63,417 nucleotides of DNA from Deltaproteobacteria bacterium (lineage in GTDB: Bacteria > CG2-30-53-67). The stretch lies in contig JAADIO010000011.1 of assembly GCA_013151235.1 (NCBI GenBank), positions 1-63,417 on the forward strand, read 5' to 3'. The notes beneath the pieces are model-generated. The model was given only the letters and a program-made list of their open reading frames with translations, was not told the DNA's origin and made no database searches. Below, in pieces: positions 55,689 through 63,206 of this stretch. The translations under genes and the position numbers were made by a program. Each line of letters opens with the position of its first letter. Within the stretch, counting starts at the first letter, position 1.

Positions 55689-56024
55689 CTACTTGACATA
55701 CAGGATCTGCCCCTCTTCGGGCAGGTGCAGATGCAATTTCTTTCGGGCACGACTCTCCACCCGATCGAGTGAGATCGAAGTCGCATATTCCAGAAGCAGA
55801 TTGCGCTTCTCCTGTTTCAACTTCCGGTTCTGCTCTTTCAGACAGGCAATCTCATAACCAACCCGGACATACTGCGTCCGTTCCCAGACGGAACAAACCC
55901 CGACCAGAACACAGAAAAATACCACGAAGAGAATGGGAAGGCGCACCCGGAGCGGGGTACGGTCCCGCTTGGAAAGGATGTCGATTTTCTGGGTCCCCGT
56001 GAAAACCCTGGGGGCATAATTCAT
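55689..56024 (-). CDS. ftsL: Cell division protein FtsL
   Basis: A 111-residue bitopic protein. Basic residues 18-28 precede one membrane helix (LPILFVVFFCVLVGVCSVW, about 30-48), then a leucine-zipper-like coiled coil with an LKEQNRKLKQEKRNLLLEY stretch. Position between rsmH and ftsI is diagnostic. It links FtsQ to FtsW/FtsI. The start overlaps the rsmH stop by 4 bases (ATGA). Confidence 0.9.
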   Translation of the reverse strand: MNYAPRVFTGTQKIDILSKRDRTPLRVRLPILFVVFFCVLVGVCSVWERTQYVRVGYEIACLKEQNRKLKQEKRNLLLEYATSISLDRVESRARKKLHLHLPEEGQILYVK

Positions 56025-56968
56025 TTTTTCTTCCCTCTTTTTTCTGCAATCCGGAGCTTCGCGCTACGAGCGGAAAGGTTCTCCCGCACCTCTTCCTCGG
56101 TGGGGAGGATCGGTCGCCTTGTGACCCGCCGCAGGACCGGCTCTTCCTTACAGACACAGACCGGAAAATCGGGGGGACAGACACACCCCTTCGCCAGCCG
56201 ATGAAAAAACCGTTTTACAATCCGGTCCTCAAGAGAATGAAAGGAAATAACACAGAGCCTTCCACCCTCCCGAAGGAGATCGACGGCCCCGGCCAAACCC
56301 TCCTCCAGCGCCGCAAGCTCTCCATTGACGGCAATCCGCAGGGCCTGAAAGGTCCGGGTCGCCGGATGAATCCTGAACCGACGCGCCCCGGGCAGCGCCT
56401 TCTCCACCAGGTCCGCCAGCTCCTTTGTGGTCCGGATGGGATGATCCTCCCGGACCCGGCAGATAGCATCCACGATGGGACGCCACCGTCTCTCCTCACC
56501 GAAACGGATGAGAATCCCCTTCAGCGTATCCCGATCCTCCCGATTCACCAGATCGCAGGCGGTAGGGATTTCGGCCTGCTGGTCCATCCGCATATCGAGA
56601 GGCGCATCGTGAAGGAAGCTGAACCCCCGTTCCGGCGAAGCCAACTGAAAGGTGGAAACACCGAGGTCCATCAGGATCCCGTCGACAACTTCGATACCCA
56701 GGGTCTCCATCCGGGAGCGAATCTCCCGGAAATTTCCCTGAACCGGCGTAAATTGAGAACCGAACGGGGCAAGTCGTTCCGCAACCCGGACAACCGCCTC
56801 GGAATCGCTGTCGAAACCGACCAGCCGTCCCTCCGGGGAGAGCCGGTTGAGAATTCTCTCTGCATGGCCCCCGCCCCCCAGGGTGCAGTCGACATAGATC
56901 CCGTCCGGATCGATCCGCAAGCCCTCGATCGACTCCTTCCACAACACCGGCAGATGCTTCATGGGCAT
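56021..56968 (-). CDS. rsmH: 16S rRNA m4C1402 methyltransferase RsmH
   Basis: A 315-residue SAM methyltransferase, formerly MraW. Motif I is YVDCTLGGGGHAERIL near residue 25, followed by DGILMDLGVSTFQL and the C-terminal VISFHSLEDRIVKRFF. It methylates C1402 of 16S rRNA. It is separated from mraZ by a STAS gene, which is unusual since mraZ and rsmH are normally adjacent. Confidence 0.96.
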   Translation of the reverse strand: MPMKHLPVLWKESIEGLRIDPDGIYVDCTLGGGGHAERILNRLSPEGRLVGFDSDSEAVVRVAERLAPFGSQFTPVQGNFREIRSRMETLGIEVVDGILMDLGVSTFQLASPERGFSFLHDAPLDMRMDQQAEIPTACDLVNREDRDTLKGILIRFGEERRWRPIVDAICRVREDHPIRTTKELADLVEKALPGARRFRIHPATRTFQALRIAVNGELAALEEGLAGAVDLLREGGRLCVISFHSLEDRIVKRFFHRLAKGCVCPPDFPVCVCKEEPVLRRVTRRPILPTEEEVRENLSARSAKLRIAEKRGKKK

Positions 56969-57031: not shown

Positions 57032-57433
57032 CTAATAGATCGTTTGCAGGTTTTTGCCATGGATGACGGCTACATCAAGATCCGTTGCCAGTCGCTCTTT
57101 TTGGATCGCCTGGATACCCCGGCTGCAGTTGGAGAAGTATTTGAAGTCGCTGTAAACACCGACGATCTGGAAGATATTCTTCAGGTATCCACTCATACCG
57201 GAAAGAGCAAGACCCCCGCCGGCATCCTTCTGCTTGCCGGCGGTCTGCGACAATTGCTTCAGACTCAGGAAATTCACATGGCTCACAGCCCCGAGATCGA
57301 GAATGGAAAAGGCATACCCCCTCAAACGGTAACGATCAATAATGGAGCAAATCCTCTTCATGTCCTCTACGTCGATATCACGATCGAGCTTGAGGACCAT
57401 GACCTTCACCTTGTCCTGATTCAGGCTTCCCAT
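57032..57433 (-). CDS. STAS-domain protein inside the dcw cluster
   Basis: A 133-residue protein made up of a single STAS-like domain. It opens KVKVMVLKLDRDIDVEDM, has the central ILDLGAVSHVNFLSLKQL, and ends with a helix after NIFQIVGVYSDFKYFSNC. This is the pattern of anti-sigma-factor antagonists and related STAS modules. In SpoIIAA the phosphorylated Ser lies in DSSGL; here the matching segment is NFLSL, and the Ser position is Leu, so control by that phosphorylation seems lost. The ATG at 57433 is preferred because GGGAGG lies 8 bases ahead. It sits between mraZ and rsmH on the same strand. Function unknown; a link to stress control or division is possible. Confidence 0.75.
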   Translation of the reverse strand: MGSLNQDKVKVMVLKLDRDIDVEDMKRICSIIDRYRLRGYAFSILDLGAVSHVNFLSLKQLSQTAGKQKDAGGGLALSGMSGYLKNIFQIVGVYSDFKYFSNCSRGIQAIQKERLATDLDVAVIHGKNLQTIY

Positions 57434-57520: not shown

Positions 57521-57958
57521 CTACAACCCAAGCTGCTGCAGAGCCTCCTCCACGTTCAAGGTTTCCTGCACCCGGCCTTCCACTTCCTCCTCCCAACGCT
57601 GCCGGTTCCACACCTCGATCCTGTTCAACATCCCGACAACCACCGTCTCCCGGCTGAGGTCCGCATGGTTTCTCAGGTCTTGAGGAATCAGGATCCGTCC
57701 CTGCTTGTCAAAACCGCATTCCGCCATGGAACCCAAGACCCAGCGAAAAACGGCCTCCTGATCCGGGGTCCTGAACTGATTGAATTTTGTCTCTTCGAGG
57801 GTTTTCCAGACGGAGAGGGGATAGGCACGAAGACAGCGATTATGCTTGACAAGAATCAGTTTTTCTTCAAAATTATCGGCAAAGACTTCGCGGAACTTTG
57901 CCGGAAAATTGAGTCTTCCCTTGGCATCAATGTTGTGATTGAAGCGGCCTCTGAACAC
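57521..57958 (-). CDS. mraZ: Transcription regulator MraZ
   Basis: A 145-residue AbrB-fold regulator with two SpoVT/AbrB-like repeats: FRGRFNHNIDAKGRLNFPAKFRE and, near residue 80, CGFDKQGRILIPQDLR (fragments of each are conserved in all MraZ). It represses its own operon, the dcw cluster, by binding TGGGN repeats. The start is taken as GTG at 57958, giving the conserved (M)FRGRF opening. A GTG at 57979 is also open, but this would put the three binding boxes inside the coding region. Confidence 0.93.
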   Translation of the reverse strand: MFRGRFNHNIDAKGRLNFPAKFREVFADNFEEKLILVKHNRCLRAYPLSVWKTLEETKFNQFRTPDQEAVFRWVLGSMAECGFDKQGRILIPQDLRNHADLSRETVVVGMLNRIEVWNRQRWEEEVEGRVQETLNVEEALQQLGL

Positions 57959-57962
57959 TTTG

Positions 57963-57988
57963 TCCCCACTCTCTCCCACATTTACCCA
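57963..57988 (-). promoter_or_regulatory. Three MraZ boxes (operator of the dcw cluster)
   Basis: On the minus strand TGGGTA (57988-57983), TGGGAG (57978-57973) and TGGGGA (57968-57963) recur at an exact 10-base period, one helical turn. This is the known MraZ operator form, placed between the promoter and the mraZ start. Autoregulation of the whole cluster by MraZ is expected. Confidence 0.85.
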
Positions 57989-57999
57989 CTATGAGACAA

Positions 58000-58029
58000 A
58001 GTATAGCCACGGAAAAAACCAATTGTCAA
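58000..58029 (-). promoter_or_regulatory. Sigma-70-type promoter of the dcw cluster
   Basis: On the minus strand a perfect TTGACA (58029-58024), an 18-base spacer and TATACT (58005-58000). Transcription would start near 57993, just ahead of the MraZ boxes, so bound MraZ would cover the early transcribed region. Confidence 0.8.
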
Positions 58030-58957: not shown

Positions 58958-60322
58958 CTACACAACAAGGCTCCCGACGAAATCCGTTAACTGTTCCAGG
59001 GTCGCGCATTCTCTTAAATCATCACAATAGGGCTTGTACTGCATCACGACATTGGTGGCGGAATACCAGAACTCTTCTTCTTCCGGGTTAAGCCAGATGG
59101 TTCTCCGGACCCGCTCCGTGATCCTGCGGAAGGTCTCCACCTTCGGATCGTTCCAGTTGTTCTCTCCGTCACCCAGGACAATCAAGGTCGTATCCTTATC
59201 CAGCGCACTGGAGTATTTCTCGAGGAAGGTCTCAAATGCGATCCCGTAATTCGTGAGCTGCCCCAGACCGATACGGTGCTGCTTGACCGCCTTCTCAAAG
59301 GCCGTTTCTAGATTGTGTTCTTTGAAATAATAGGAAATCTCATGGGCGGTACGAACAAAGATGAAGGAGCGAATTTTGGAAAACCGGTCCTGCAATCGGT
59401 ATAACAGCAGAAGCATCAGATGGGCCTCGTAGGCCACGGACATCGAAATATCGCAAAGGGCGACGATCTTTCCTTTTTTGCGGCGGTGAACCCGCCGGCG
59501 AAGATCAAAGGGAACACCGTCATAGCGGAGGGAACTGCGAATCGTGTTCTTGATATCCAGACTGCCGTGATGCGCCCGCTTCTCCCGACGGATCAATGCG
59601 TCTTTCAGTTTCTGGGCAAGCTTCTCCACGGCTTCCTTTACCCGGGCATGTTCCTTGAGAGTCAGGCGGTCGAATTTAATCATCGAAATCGTCCGCTGCC
59701 GCTCCCAGGGAAGAAGCTTTTCCTGGGCGGGCCTTGCCGTCCTCTTCTCCTGCAACAGATCCTGCGCATCCTGCAAGCGCCTCCGCAGAAATTCGCTCAA
59801 TGCCTCCCGCTGATCCCGGGTCATCTGATAGGAAGCCTCCGTATAGGCCTCTCGTTTGTCCTGAATGACCCGGATCGCCTTGCGTACCTTTTCCCGTTTC
59901 GACTTCGAAAGCGGACGGTCCGACAACTCTCCTTCGCCGATCTCCACGGTGTCCTCTCCCCGGACCAGATCGAGAAGCCCATCCACCTCTCCCTCAATGT
60001 AGTCTGCAAGAAGTTTTTCCGTTTGGTCGCCCTCCCTGCGCAGCTCTCCCGCAAACTCCAGCGCCTCGAGCTTGACGACGGAATCGAGCTGCTCAAATTC
60101 CAGGGGAGAGTGATCTTCAAAAAACCGATGAAACAACCGGATGAATTTCGGCCGGTCCCTGCTCTGCTTGATAAAACAGCCCTGCAGGGCGAAGAGAAAT
60201 TGTTCACGGTCTAAAAGCTCAATCTCTTTCAGTGCCGTGACGGCATCGTGCAACGACGAAGTGGCGATGGGAAAACCATTGTACCGCAGAAAATTCGCGA
60301 ACTGGAGCAGGACGGAAGTCAC
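58958..60322 (-). CDS. CoxE-like VWA-domain protein
   Basis: A 454-residue protein with a helical N-terminal two-thirds and a C-terminal von Willebrand A domain. The MIDAS motif DISMSV (DxSxS) is in LCDISMSVAYEAH near residue 290, with later metal-site residues in LIVLGDGENNWND near 390. It matches the CoxE-like family that pairs with MoxR ATPases to insert cofactors or remodel protein complexes. The start is GTG at 60322 in a GTGA overlap with the MoxR stop, with GGGAG upstream. The client protein is unknown; no CO dehydrogenase or methanol dehydrogenase gene is near. Confidence 0.85.
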   Translation of the reverse strand: MTSVLLQFANFLRYNGFPIATSSLHDAVTALKEIELLDREQFLFALQGCFIKQSRDRPKFIRLFHRFFEDHSPLEFEQLDSVVKLEALEFAGELRREGDQTEKLLADYIEGEVDGLLDLVRGEDTVEIGEGELSDRPLSKSKREKVRKAIRVIQDKREAYTEASYQMTRDQREALSEFLRRRLQDAQDLLQEKRTARPAQEKLLPWERQRTISMIKFDRLTLKEHARVKEAVEKLAQKLKDALIRREKRAHHGSLDIKNTIRSSLRYDGVPFDLRRRVHRRKKGKIVALCDISMSVAYEAHLMLLLLYRLQDRFSKIRSFIFVRTAHEISYYFKEHNLETAFEKAVKQHRIGLGQLTNYGIAFETFLEKYSSALDKDTTLIVLGDGENNWNDPKVETFRRITERVRRTIWLNPEEEEFWYSATNVVMQYKPYCDDLRECATLEQLTDFVGSLVV

Positions 60323-61251
60323 CGGTCATCTCCCAGGATCCGGGCCGAGTTCTGCAGGATCGTATCCATATCGGTCTTGTACTTGCTGATAATCCCCAGC
60401 GTCTTCCGGAGCTCATCGGCTTCGAGATTCCGGATATTCAGAGTCAGCAACGATTCCGCCCAGTCGATGGTCTCGGAGATGGCCGGTTTTTTCTTGATGT
60501 CCAGGTCGCGGATGCGGTGGATAGAGCGGACTAATTTATTGATCAGCGACTTGTCCATATCGGGAAACCGGGAGGCCACGATCTTGCATTCCAGCTCCTG
60601 CGACGGATAGTCAATGAAGAGATGAAGGCACCGCCGCTTGAGGGCATCACTCAAATCCCGGTTGGCATTGGACGTCAGAAAGACCATGGGAATCACCCGG
60701 GGCTTCCGGGTCCCGAGTTCGGGGATCGTAATCTCATAATTGTTCAGCACCTCCAGCAGGTAGGCCTCAAACTCCGGGTCCGGCTTGTCCACTTCGTCGA
60801 TCAGCAGGACCGACTGCTCCTCCGAAGTGATGGCCCTCAGCAGGGGCCGCTGCAACAGGAAATGATCGGAGAAGAAGGCGTTTTCCAGTTCATCCAGGGA
60901 TTGGATCGCCTGAGAGAGATCACGGGCGGAGTCGACCAGCTCATGGATCTTCTCTTTCAGCAACTGCGTGTAGAGAAGCTGCTTGGCATACTCCCACTCA
61001 TAAATCGCCTTCGTCTCATCGATCCCCTCATAACATTGCAGATGGATCAACTCCCGGTGCATCGCCTTTGCCATGGCCCGGGCCAGCTCCGTCTTCCCGA
61101 CACCGGCCGGCCCTTCCACCAGGACGGGACGCTGCATCCGGATCCCTAAATAGACGATCGTTGCAATCTCTTTCGAGGCGATATACTTCTGCTTCTTCAA
61201 TGCCTTGGATACATCTTTGACGGATTTGATCGACACGGGTACACACTCCAT
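60319..61251 (-). CDS. MoxR-family AAA ATPase
   Basis: A 310-residue AAA ATPase. Walker A is EGPAGVGKTELARAMAKAM (near residue 36), Walker B VLLIDEVDKPDPEFEAYLLE (near 125), sensor 1 is in VFLTSNANRDLSDAL with the arginine finger region RRCLHLFIDYP. This is the MoxR/YeaC-type that works with a VWA partner, encoded just downstream with a 4-base overlap. The ATG at 61251 has a weak ribosome site; a GTG at 61236 with GGAG upstream is an alternative. The open frame running up to 61464 crosses an IS remnant and is not used. Confidence 0.9.
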   Translation of the reverse strand: MECVPVSIKSVKDVSKALKKQKYIASKEIATIVYLGIRMQRPVLVEGPAGVGKTELARAMAKAMHRELIHLQCYEGIDETKAIYEWEYAKQLLYTQLLKEKIHELVDSARDLSQAIQSLDELENAFFSDHFLLQRPLLRAITSEEQSVLLIDEVDKPDPEFEAYLLEVLNNYEITIPELGTRKPRVIPMVFLTSNANRDLSDALKRRCLHLFIDYPSQELECKIVASRFPDMDKSLINKLVRSIHRIRDLDIKKKPAISETIDWAESLLTLNIRNLEADELRKTLGIISKYKTDMDTILQNSARILGDDR

Positions 61252-61319
61252 TCTCATAAGACGCCCGGCCAACCCCGGGCATATTTTGAACAGCTTGTAA
61301 AAAGAAGTCGGATTGATGA

Positions 61320-61655
61320 CAACAATATTACATAGCAACAGAGCCGTCAAGGGCGATTGCCCGGCAACTCGGTCTGGATCGCAGAACGGTGGCAAGCTAC
61401 ATCCGGAACGGGGAATTCCCCCAATATCAGGTGGTGAATCGGCGGTCGGGATTGACCCTACCAATGATCAAGGATTGGCTCGGGCAAGAGGACTATCCGG
61501 CGGCCCCGGTACACGATCCGGTGCAACTCCAGGGCGATATGGGGCGTTGGGGGGGGCACACACATGACATTCTTGAGGTAAACTTTCAGGGAGCACCATC
61601 GGGGATAGTTAACTTACATTCAGCGGTTTACCCGGGGCGGCCACCCAAACAATGA
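61320..61655 (+). pseudogene. Transposase remnant (helix-turn-helix part)
   Basis: The plus-strand frame from 61320 reads RAIARQLGLDRRTVASYI followed by RNGEFPQY and a basic stretch, the helix-turn-helix segment typical of IS transposases of ISL3 or IS21 type. There is no start codon in normal context, no catalytic domain and no visible inverted repeats; the frame ends at 61655. It fills the 404-base gap between the MoxR gene and the delta-60 repeat protein and marks an old insertion or deletion event. Confidence 0.55.
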
Positions 61656-63206
61656 TTATGCCCTTCTCCTCTTTGCCAGGTAAATCAGCAGGAGGGGAAG
61701 AAGAAGGAAGACAAGATCCGGTCCGGCAGGGGCGCCCTGACGAAGGGCGCAGCCGCCCCCACCCCCTCCACCGCCACCGCTGCTGCCGGTGGAAAGGCCG
61801 CCGGCCTCCACGGCCGGTCCGCCGGCATCCGTGATGACACCGTCCGCCGTGAGGTCGTCGTCGCCCCGTTTCCCGTCCACGAAGTGGAGGGTGATGGTAT
61901 GCCCGCTGATCTCGGCCCCCGTGGTTCCGTCATAACTGAACTTGTACCAGTGATCACTTGTGTTATCCGGCGTCGGGCCGTACATGTAGTAGGCGTTGAC
62001 CGTCGTGTCGGACGGGAGATAGATCGTCACGGTCGTCCCCTGTCCGCTTCCGACCTTATTCACTTTGAAACTGAAGAGACCGTAGGGAAAGGTCGTGTTG
62101 CTGCTCGGGCCGCTTGCCGGCTTCGGCAGGGAGGTTGCGGCCGTGATCGTCTCCCCCGATCCCTTCGCCTTGAGCGTCACGGCGGCGTCACCTGCCGTGT
62201 AGAGGGAGGCGACACCCGGCTCATCGGCATCGGCCGTTCCGTCCCTGTCCCCGTCGTAATCTGCTGGAATCGGACCAAGCAATCGTGTCAGGACAATCCT
62301 TGAAGAATTATAATTATTGCCCTCATTCCCTACAAGAAGGATCCGTCCGTCCGGCAATTGCACAATATCACGATAACTTTCACCGTCATACTGGATCACC
62401 CCCTTTGTCCCGAAGGAGGTGTCGGGCGAGCCGTCACTGTTGTAGTAAAGGAGAAACGAGCCTTCAATAGGGGATGACGAACTCTTACATGCACCAAGGA
62501 CGTAGATTTTCCCGTCGGGCTGCAGAACGTGGTCAGAAACCCAGCATGAGTCGTAACTTCGATCATCAGTGTACGTTACGACGCCGTTTGTCCCAAAGGT
62601 CGTATCGAGGGTCCCGTCACTGTTGTACCGGAGGACAACGGCATCTCCCGTGGCAGAGGTCTCGCCATCCCCAACCAGAAGGATCTTGCCGCTATTCATG
62701 GGAAGGACGCTGCCCCCCGACATATCACTATTGCTTACGACGCCGTCCGTTCCGAAGGTGGTGTCAAGGGTCCCGTCACTCTTGTACCGAAGCAGGAAAG
62801 AGAAAACGCCGCCAGAGGAGGAGCAGTCCCCGGTAACAAGGATTTTGCCGCCTGAGTCTGTATGCATCTCATAGTCCTTGCAGGAGGAATTAGAAGCAGG
62901 TGAATAGGTTACCGTACCTCCCGATCCGAAGGATGTGTCTATTTTACCATCGGACGTGTAACGTTGTATGAATAATTTTGCCGAACCACCCGTAGCTGGA
63001 TAGGACCTCCAAACAACGAGGATCTTACCATCGGACTGTATGATCACATCATCAACATCATTATCCGTGCCTTGGCCATCATGACAGATGACGGAACCGT
63101 TCGTCCCGAAGGTGGTGTAAGCATCCCCCTCCGCGGCCGTTGCGGCCGGGATGCTTACTGAAAACAGGAAAAAGACGGAAAAGATAACAGCGGCGAATCT
63201 CTTCAT
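61656..63206 (-). CDS. Secreted delta-60 repeat protein with C-terminal sorting tail
   Basis: A 516-residue secreted protein. A signal peptide (residues 1-24, MKRFAAVIFSVFFLFSVSI then AATAA) is followed by five delta-60-type repeats with the pattern DG-LDTTFG-GV----DGKILLVG, likely to form a propeller-like surface. Next is an acidic calcium-like loop DYDGDRDGTADADEPG (near 310) and a domain like choice-of-anchor U, ending GDDDLTADGVITDAGGPA. The C-terminus is nine Gly, a Cys, one hydrophobic helix (VFLLLPLLLIYLA) and KRRRA, a three-part tail resembling sorting signals processed by dedicated proteases. AAGGAA precedes the ATG. Ligand unknown. Confidence 0.8.
   Translation of the reverse strand: MKRFAAVIFSVFFLFSVSIPAATAAEGDAYTTFGTNGSVICHDGQGTDNDVDDVIIQSDGKILVVWRSYPATGGSAKLFIQRYTSDGKIDTSFGSGGTVTYSPASNSSCKDYEMHTDSGGKILVTGDCSSSGGVFSFLLRYKSDGTLDTTFGTDGVVSNSDMSGGSVLPMNSGKILLVGDGETSATGDAVVLRYNSDGTLDTTFGTNGVVTYTDDRSYDSCWVSDHVLQPDGKIYVLGACKSSSSPIEGSFLLYYNSDGSPDTSFGTKGVIQYDGESYRDIVQLPDGRILLVGNEGNNYNSSRIVLTRLLGPIPADYDGDRDGTADADEPGVASLYTAGDAAVTLKAKGSGETITAATSLPKPASGPSSNTTFPYGLFSFKVNKVGSGQGTTVTIYLPSDTTVNAYYMYGPTPDNTSDHWYKFSYDGTTGAEISGHTITLHFVDGKRGDDDLTADGVITDAGGPAVEAGGLSTGSSGGGGGGGGGCALRQGAPAGPDLVFLLLPLLLIYLAKRRRA

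Follow-up and report, generated by a model that had tools for sequence, protein, structure and literature searches.

Few bacterial transcription factors are as conserved as MraZ, and its own control is largely open. Its gene stands in the dcw cluster, in which mraZ, rsmH, ftsL, ftsI, murE, murF and mraY form the usual order. In E. coli, MraZ represses the cluster to which it belongs and is antagonistic to MraW (PMC8475190, citing Eraso 2014), and MraZ boxes lie upstream of the cluster (PMC8475190). The head of the dcw cluster in the window, by which we mean the whole 63,417-nucleotide stretch of DNA analyzed here, has this usual order and a three-repeat MraZ-type operator, but differs in that a further gene separates mraZ from rsmH.

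The extra gene encodes a STAS-domain protein, and three kinds of described STAS protein can be compared with it. Like SpoIIAA and RsbV (PF01740, TIGR00377), the window protein consists of a STAS domain only, and SpoIIAA is its best solved-structure match; unlike them, it lacks the D-S-S-G loop and serine at both loop positions, and its gene belongs to a division cluster. STAS domains can also be non-switching adaptors, and the STAS protein MlaB binds its transporter. The window protein would share with MlaB-type proteins (STAS_2, PF13466) the use of a STAS fold as a non-switching subunit, but it scores 16 bits against a cut-off of 29.2 and has dcw neighbors and no mla transporter genes. The gene neighborhoods of SypA, BtrV, RbaV and HmpV contain kinase or phosphatase genes. 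These four are, like the window protein, small STAS proteins thought to act beyond a classical anti-sigma factor, and unlike it they are reported to carry a phosphorylatable serine or to take part in a phosphorylation cycle (PMC8256260). In titles and abstract openings of the open-licence literature we found no description of a STAS gene in the mraZ-rsmH interval, and in passages of the Verrucomicrobium dcw literature the string ‘stas’ occurs only inside other words.

A STAS gene between mraZ and rsmH

The first-pass annotation of this DNA reported a 133-residue STAS protein between mraZ and rsmH, and our analysis agrees on the open reading frame, on the domain and, by profile, on both neighbors (Table 1). 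PF01740 matches the protein at 4e-7 over residues 10-102, with 30.2 bits against a gathering cut-off of 22.6, and it also matches all 22 aligned operon-linked members at E <= 0.01. We prefer the ATG start over a longer reading frame of 147 residues because a Shine-Dalgarno-like site, GGGAGGG, lies immediately upstream, and because, in the five family relatives whose sequence extends upstream, the corresponding codon is likewise an ATG preceded by a G-rich site. Compared with its congener, the gene shows 94% amino acid and 90% DNA identity (dN 0.028, dS 0.46, dN/dS about 0.06) and is under purifying selection. A spurious reading frame is ruled out by this ratio together with the Pfam match, and a defence gene by PADLOC, which gave no match. 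The gene is almost certainly a conserved dcw-linked STAS gene.

The sole structure model of the protein, made by AlphaFold from a 3-sequence alignment, is of low confidence (pLDDT 46), so the fold assignment rests on sequence profiles. At the C terminus, from about residue 118 to 133, lies a tail with the pattern D-L/I-D-x-A-V-I-x-G-K/R, which among the 22 aligned proteins is found in the window's family only. In genomes G002 and G004 this conserved tail is extended further.

Table 1. Positions of the STAS gene, its neighbors and other features in the window.
Feature	Position	Strand	Details
STAS gene	57032..57433	-	ATG 57433, 133 aa; mraZ upstream, rsmH downstream
Codon of Leu56	57266..57268	-	aligned to SpoIIAA phosphorylatable Ser58
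STAS C-terminal tail	57035-57082	-
mraZ	57521..57958	-	PF02381 4.1e-29; TIGR00242 120.2 bits over 98.35
rsmH (mraW), 16S rRNA m4C1402 methyltransferase	56021..56968	-	PF01795 3.2e-115; TIGR00006 354.6 bits over 154.3
ftsL, next cluster gene after rsmH	55689..56024	-	TIGR02209 44.4 over 42.45 bits
Putative MraZ operator, three direct repeats GTGGGNNNNN in 10-bp steps	57965..57989	-	immediately upstream of mraZ start
Sigma-70-type promoter, TTGACA-18-TATACT	58000..58029	-	11/12 consensus
Weaker promoter site, overlapping the main one	58050-58022	-
VWA + AAA ATPase pair	58958-61464	-	upstream of thiD
Delta-60 repeat protein	61656-63206	-	secreted-looking

On the minus strand the order is thiD (TIGR00097 above cut-off), the promoter, mraZ, the STAS gene, rsmH and ftsL, followed by ftsI, murE, murF and mraY, which were named by eye; the order is alike in relatives. 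The triple repeat of GTGGGNNNNN is matched with zero mismatches and is the sole match in the window at up to 2 mismatches, where 0.38 would be expected by chance. We take these GTGGG-type repeats to resemble the MraZ boxes of E. coli. In all six genomes of the family the main promoter stands at the equivalent place, and mraZ is preceded by these repeats or by close variants; close variants also occur in both sister-family genomes. The longest mraZ reading frame begins at GTG 57979, which falls within the MraZ-type repeats. GTG 57958 is the probable start instead, because the codons ahead of it make up the repeats and in two relatives an ATG stands at that place.

We searched the same strand between mraZ and rsmH for promoter-like and terminator-like sites and found none. 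Since the promoter and the MraZ-type boxes lie ahead of mraZ and no such site intervenes before rsmH, it is very probable that the STAS gene is transcribed together with its neighbors under the control of MraZ. The placement inside the mraZ operon that the first-pass annotation assumed is thereby upheld by the promoter and the three GTGGG boxes upstream, with co-transcription as the inferred step.

Occurrence of the gene within and beyond the phylum

Our sample of the phylum comprised eight genomes, six from the window's family and two from a sister family. The arrangement mraZ-STAS-rsmH on one strand is present in 6/6 genomes of the window's family, with STAS protein identities of 57-94%, and in both sister-family genomes mraZ adjoins rsmH with no gene between. 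A contig search returned two members only, both of the window's family. On a contig of 6,428 bases (C71, locus L036), genome G005 carries a second, different STAS-rsmH-ftsL-ftsI-murE-murF block, with the STAS gene at the contig edge; this block is possibly a contaminant or a second strain.

A search with the window protein alone matched five genomes outside the phylum, two of which likewise have their STAS gene in the mraZ-rsmH interval. For a survey independent of STAS, we located RsmH in 141 of 145 genomes and took up to 1.7 kb upstream of it for the 133 outside the phylum, one per family. By profile search, mraZ lies upstream of rsmH in 108 of the 133 (one match, G014, is weak at 4e-4). The STAS profile for this survey started from the window's family together with 18 further STAS proteins and was then iterated. 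With it, 12 of the 108 genomes show a STAS gene in the mraZ-rsmH interval, ten at E <= 1e-23 and two weakly (G037, 7.9e-7; G032, 9.4e-4), with some of these E-values partly given by construction because five seeds come from positive genomes (G031, G035, G071, G136 and G138). Most clusters, 96 of the 108, are without the gene. Gap reading frames of about 110-120 residues between mraZ and rsmH in two or three further genomes (L152 in G086, L186 in G058 and perhaps L177 in G056) look by eye like strongly diverged STAS domains. None matched at the survey profile threshold, those of G086 and G058 were again without a match, and all three are left uncounted.

A search of 386 genomes matched 130. From these, 30 loci were taken; six were the family genomes, and 15 of the other 24, which were read for linkage, are linked, nine of them from genomes outside the survey count. 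Lower-ranked STAS matches read as unlinked to mraZ-rsmH in 20 of 20 cases. Phylum-wide checks found the STAS gene in 3/3 genomes of one phylum and 10/10 of another. In a third phylum, many of whose genomes are of 9-13 Mb and which is probably Myxococcota, 82 of 146 genomes have a STAS match, and the best 30 of the 82, which were read, are all linked loci with the order mraZ-STAS-rsmH. The three phylum searches together give this order on one strand in 43 of 45 loci (37 of the 43 from genomes not counted before), and the two exceptions are D-S-S-G paralogues.

The STAS gene is kept in the mraZ operon in at least four phyla. The first-pass annotation treated the gene as a departure from the normal mraZ-rsmH neighborhood and proposed looking for it in the dcw cluster of relatives. 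There it is present, in 6/6 family genomes and in other phyla, so it is not missing from all relatives, the outcome named as speaking against that annotation, and the arrangement is not a local oddity. A chance insertion confined to the window is ruled out by the same occurrence in the family and across phyla.

The phospho-site loop

The leucine that the first-pass annotation noted at the likely phospho-serine position is Leu56, which aligns with the SpoIIAA phospho-site Ser58. The window loop reads N54-F55-L56-S57 in place of D-S-S-G. We compared this loop in 28 dcw-linked rows, seven of them from the window's own family, and 42 rows of other STAS proteins. At column 58, the operon-linked rows carry Arg in 11 cases, Leu in 5, Met in 4, Val in 2, Ser in 2, and Asn, Thr, Lys and Glu in 1 each. 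Ser or Thr thus occurs at this column in 3/28 operon-linked rows against 19/42 others; because 23 of the 42 ordinary STAS rows also lack Ser/Thr here, loss at column 58 alone is not special.

Column 57 is the telling one. Ser or Thr stands there in none of the 28 operon-linked rows against 40 of the 42 others, and 20 of the 28 have Tyr or Phe. In the 43 linked loci of the phylum-wide checks, the loop reads NYRG in 26, DYRG in 9, NYKG in 4, NYMG in 2, and NYTG and DHRG in 1 each. The window leucine is thus one case of a widespread exchange of the phospho-site for an aromatic residue followed by one that is mostly bulky. Constitutive binding of a partner, which the first-pass annotation read from the leucine, is a fair deduction consistent with the near family-wide loss of Ser57-Ser58, and we keep it at that strength.

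Relationships of the operon-linked STAS proteins

The STAS tree holds 26 operon-linked and 40 other proteins, found with related profiles, over 112 columns, and has many open forks and near-copies among its rows. Four short or weak rows, the dcw-linked L189 and L178 and the unlinked L212 and L224, were excluded from the tree and kept in the residue counts above. Over the 66 rows the labels linked and unlinked change 2 times, compared with a mean of 20.8 after shuffling, and 0 of 500 shuffles are as low. A branch with support 91/91 has 24 of the 26 linked rows on one side, and the linked rows of G008 and G047 fall among ordinary STAS proteins in an unresolved part of the tree. A single label change occurs in 0% of 200 bootstrap trees (range 2-4 changes). 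Placing all 26 linked rows in one clade costs 0.9 log units and is not rejected (p-AU 0.448). These results point to one main lineage of operon-linked STAS proteins, and not to repeated recruitment. The window protein lies inside a dcw-only set of 9 rows with support 98/92; by position, profile and tree it is a member of a widespread dcw-linked family of STAS-domain-only proteins, which we call dcw-STAS.

A tree of 142 RsmH rows has 9 of 139 branches well supported; on it, the presence of the STAS gene needs 13 changes against a shuffled mean of 18. Its presence is therefore patchy, and loss and transfer are indistinguishable on this tree. Over 23 loci, STAS distances correlate with those of RsmH at a partial r of 0.36 and with those of MraZ at a partial r of 0.20. 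Since they track RsmH better than MraZ, co-evolution does not mark out MraZ as the partner.

Kinases, phosphatases and the sigma-factor link

According to the first-pass annotation, the gene could connect stress or sigma-factor control with wall synthesis. A SpoIIE-type (PP2C) phosphatase was found in 0/6 family genomes and in 1/8 genomes of the phylum sample. HATPase_c_2 scores above the Pfam cut-off in all eight phylum genomes, mostly weakly, and the weaker matches are presumably histidine kinases; at E < 1e-20 it is present in four of the six family genomes and missing in two. There were 23 other carriers or suspected carriers, 21 of them with a profile match and two, G058 and G086, judged STAS-like by eye alone. 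A HATPase_c_2 match at E <= 1e-10 was found in 19 of them and is missing in G037, G136, G273 and G316.

With TIGR00377 the window protein scores 22.2 bits, below the cut-off of 53.45. The same model matches 22/22 aligned members at E <= 0.001 (best 9.7e-20), the other members being judged by E-value and not against the cut-off, and a SpoIIAA model is matched by 17 of the 22. Against solved structures, SpoIIAA is matched at 6.5e-15 by the operon-linked profile of 22 proteins and at 1.6e-4 by the family profile of seven proteins.

In the window's own genome, at about 17,258-18,041 of contig C48 (L200/L217), the gene of a large protein, ATPase-like by eye, with a C-terminal HATPase_c_2 domain lies beside a second STAS gene, whose loop reads N-S-I-G and is also without Ser at position 58. 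Pairs of this HATPase_c_2 and STAS type are also present in G002, G003 and G005.

An ordinary RsbV is ruled out by the replaced loop, the missed TIGR00377 cut-off and the failure to find a SpoIIE phosphatase. Because the site is replaced and the phosphatase was not found, we infer that the window protein does not undergo RsbW/SpoIIE phosphorylation switching. The kinase and phosphatase pattern weakens the case for an anti-sigma target. With no SpoIIE phosphatase found in six of six family genomes, with gaps in HATPase_c_2, and with neighbors, mraZ and rsmH, that are neither sigma nor anti-sigma genes, the proposed link to stress or sigma-factor control is not supported.

Models for the function of the STAS protein

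We tentatively favor a model in which the window protein is a constitutive, phosphorylation-independent adaptor that acts at the MraZ/RsmH step, its partner being presumed; we consider this model quite possible. The level of the STAS protein would be set by MraZ itself. Its target would be MraZ, or MraZ together with RsmH, the two being antagonists in E. coli, and by binding there it would modulate the cluster at its first point of regulation, such that repression of the division operon would be tuned in proportion to operon output. A broader and somewhat doubtful version of the model makes the protein a third, ancient and patchily kept component of mraZ-rsmH, a dedicated STAS protein, independent of phosphorylation, that would bind MraZ, or else mediate between it and RsmH, and provide proportional feedback on the expression of division genes.

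The resemblance to SpoIIAA, the closest solved structure by sequence, and the match of 22/22 members to the antagonist superfamily model raise the alternative, in line with the first-pass annotation, of a constitutive anti-sigma antagonist, which would bind an RsbW-like factor while unphosphorylated and free a sigma factor when the division operon is expressed. HATPase_c_2 proteins, found on C48 in its own genome and in 19 of the 23 other carriers or suspected carriers, could supply such a factor. However, the strong match is missing in two of six family genomes and the match at E <= 1e-10 in four other carriers or suspected carriers, and the strong HATPase_c_2 protein of the window's own genome already has an adjoining STAS gene. 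The phospho-site loop has been exchanged, in most cases for an aromatic residue plus Arg, Met or Leu, the family is without a detected SpoIIE phosphatase, and the direct neighbors are mraZ and rsmH; we consider this explanation distinctly unlikely. It is rather unlikely that the protein is instead an adaptor for division or wall synthesis, binding a later cluster product (FtsL/FtsI or a Mur enzyme) or a membrane complex, with its position reflecting merely co-expression. It does share a strand and a probable transcript with ftsL, ftsI and the mur genes, STAS domains can act elsewhere as non-switching adaptors, and the MlaB model is weakly matched by 2/22 members. Yet the neighborhood read contains no transporter gene, and because an aromatic residue at column 57 occurs in 0/42 unlinked STAS rows, rows that were chosen by similarity, this type is met only beside mraZ and rsmH.

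A partnership with RsmH, in which the protein would assist or regulate the 16S rRNA methyltransferase encoded directly downstream, seems to us very improbable. STAS distances track RsmH best, as given above, and in 8/12 survey cases the STAS stop and the beginning of the rsmH match are at most about 30 nt apart, but such tight spacing is ordinary in operons. Moreover, 0/25 survey genomes in which mraZ was not found upstream of rsmH carry the STAS gene, against 12/108 where it was, a difference that is not significant (Fisher p 0.07; two of the 25 had <0.9 kb of upstream sequence).

If the adaptor model for the MraZ/RsmH step is right, dcw-STAS would be a STAS adaptor that works without partner switching, outside both sigma-factor control and transporters. 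A STAS protein kept in the operon in at least four phyla, with its phospho-switch near-uniformly lost, is a candidate for the missing partner of MraZ, and the idea can be tested in any culturable carrier.

Other features of the window

Upstream of thiD lies a pair of genes for a VWA protein and an AAA ATPase, whose nearest models are MadC and MadB; the pair falls far below the cut-offs of both (132/600 and 326/475 bits). Elsewhere in the window, the delta-60 repeat protein has a choice-of-anchor U domain, and its tail (Gly-rich, Cys, hydrophobic, RRR) resembles by eye a C-terminal sorting signal.
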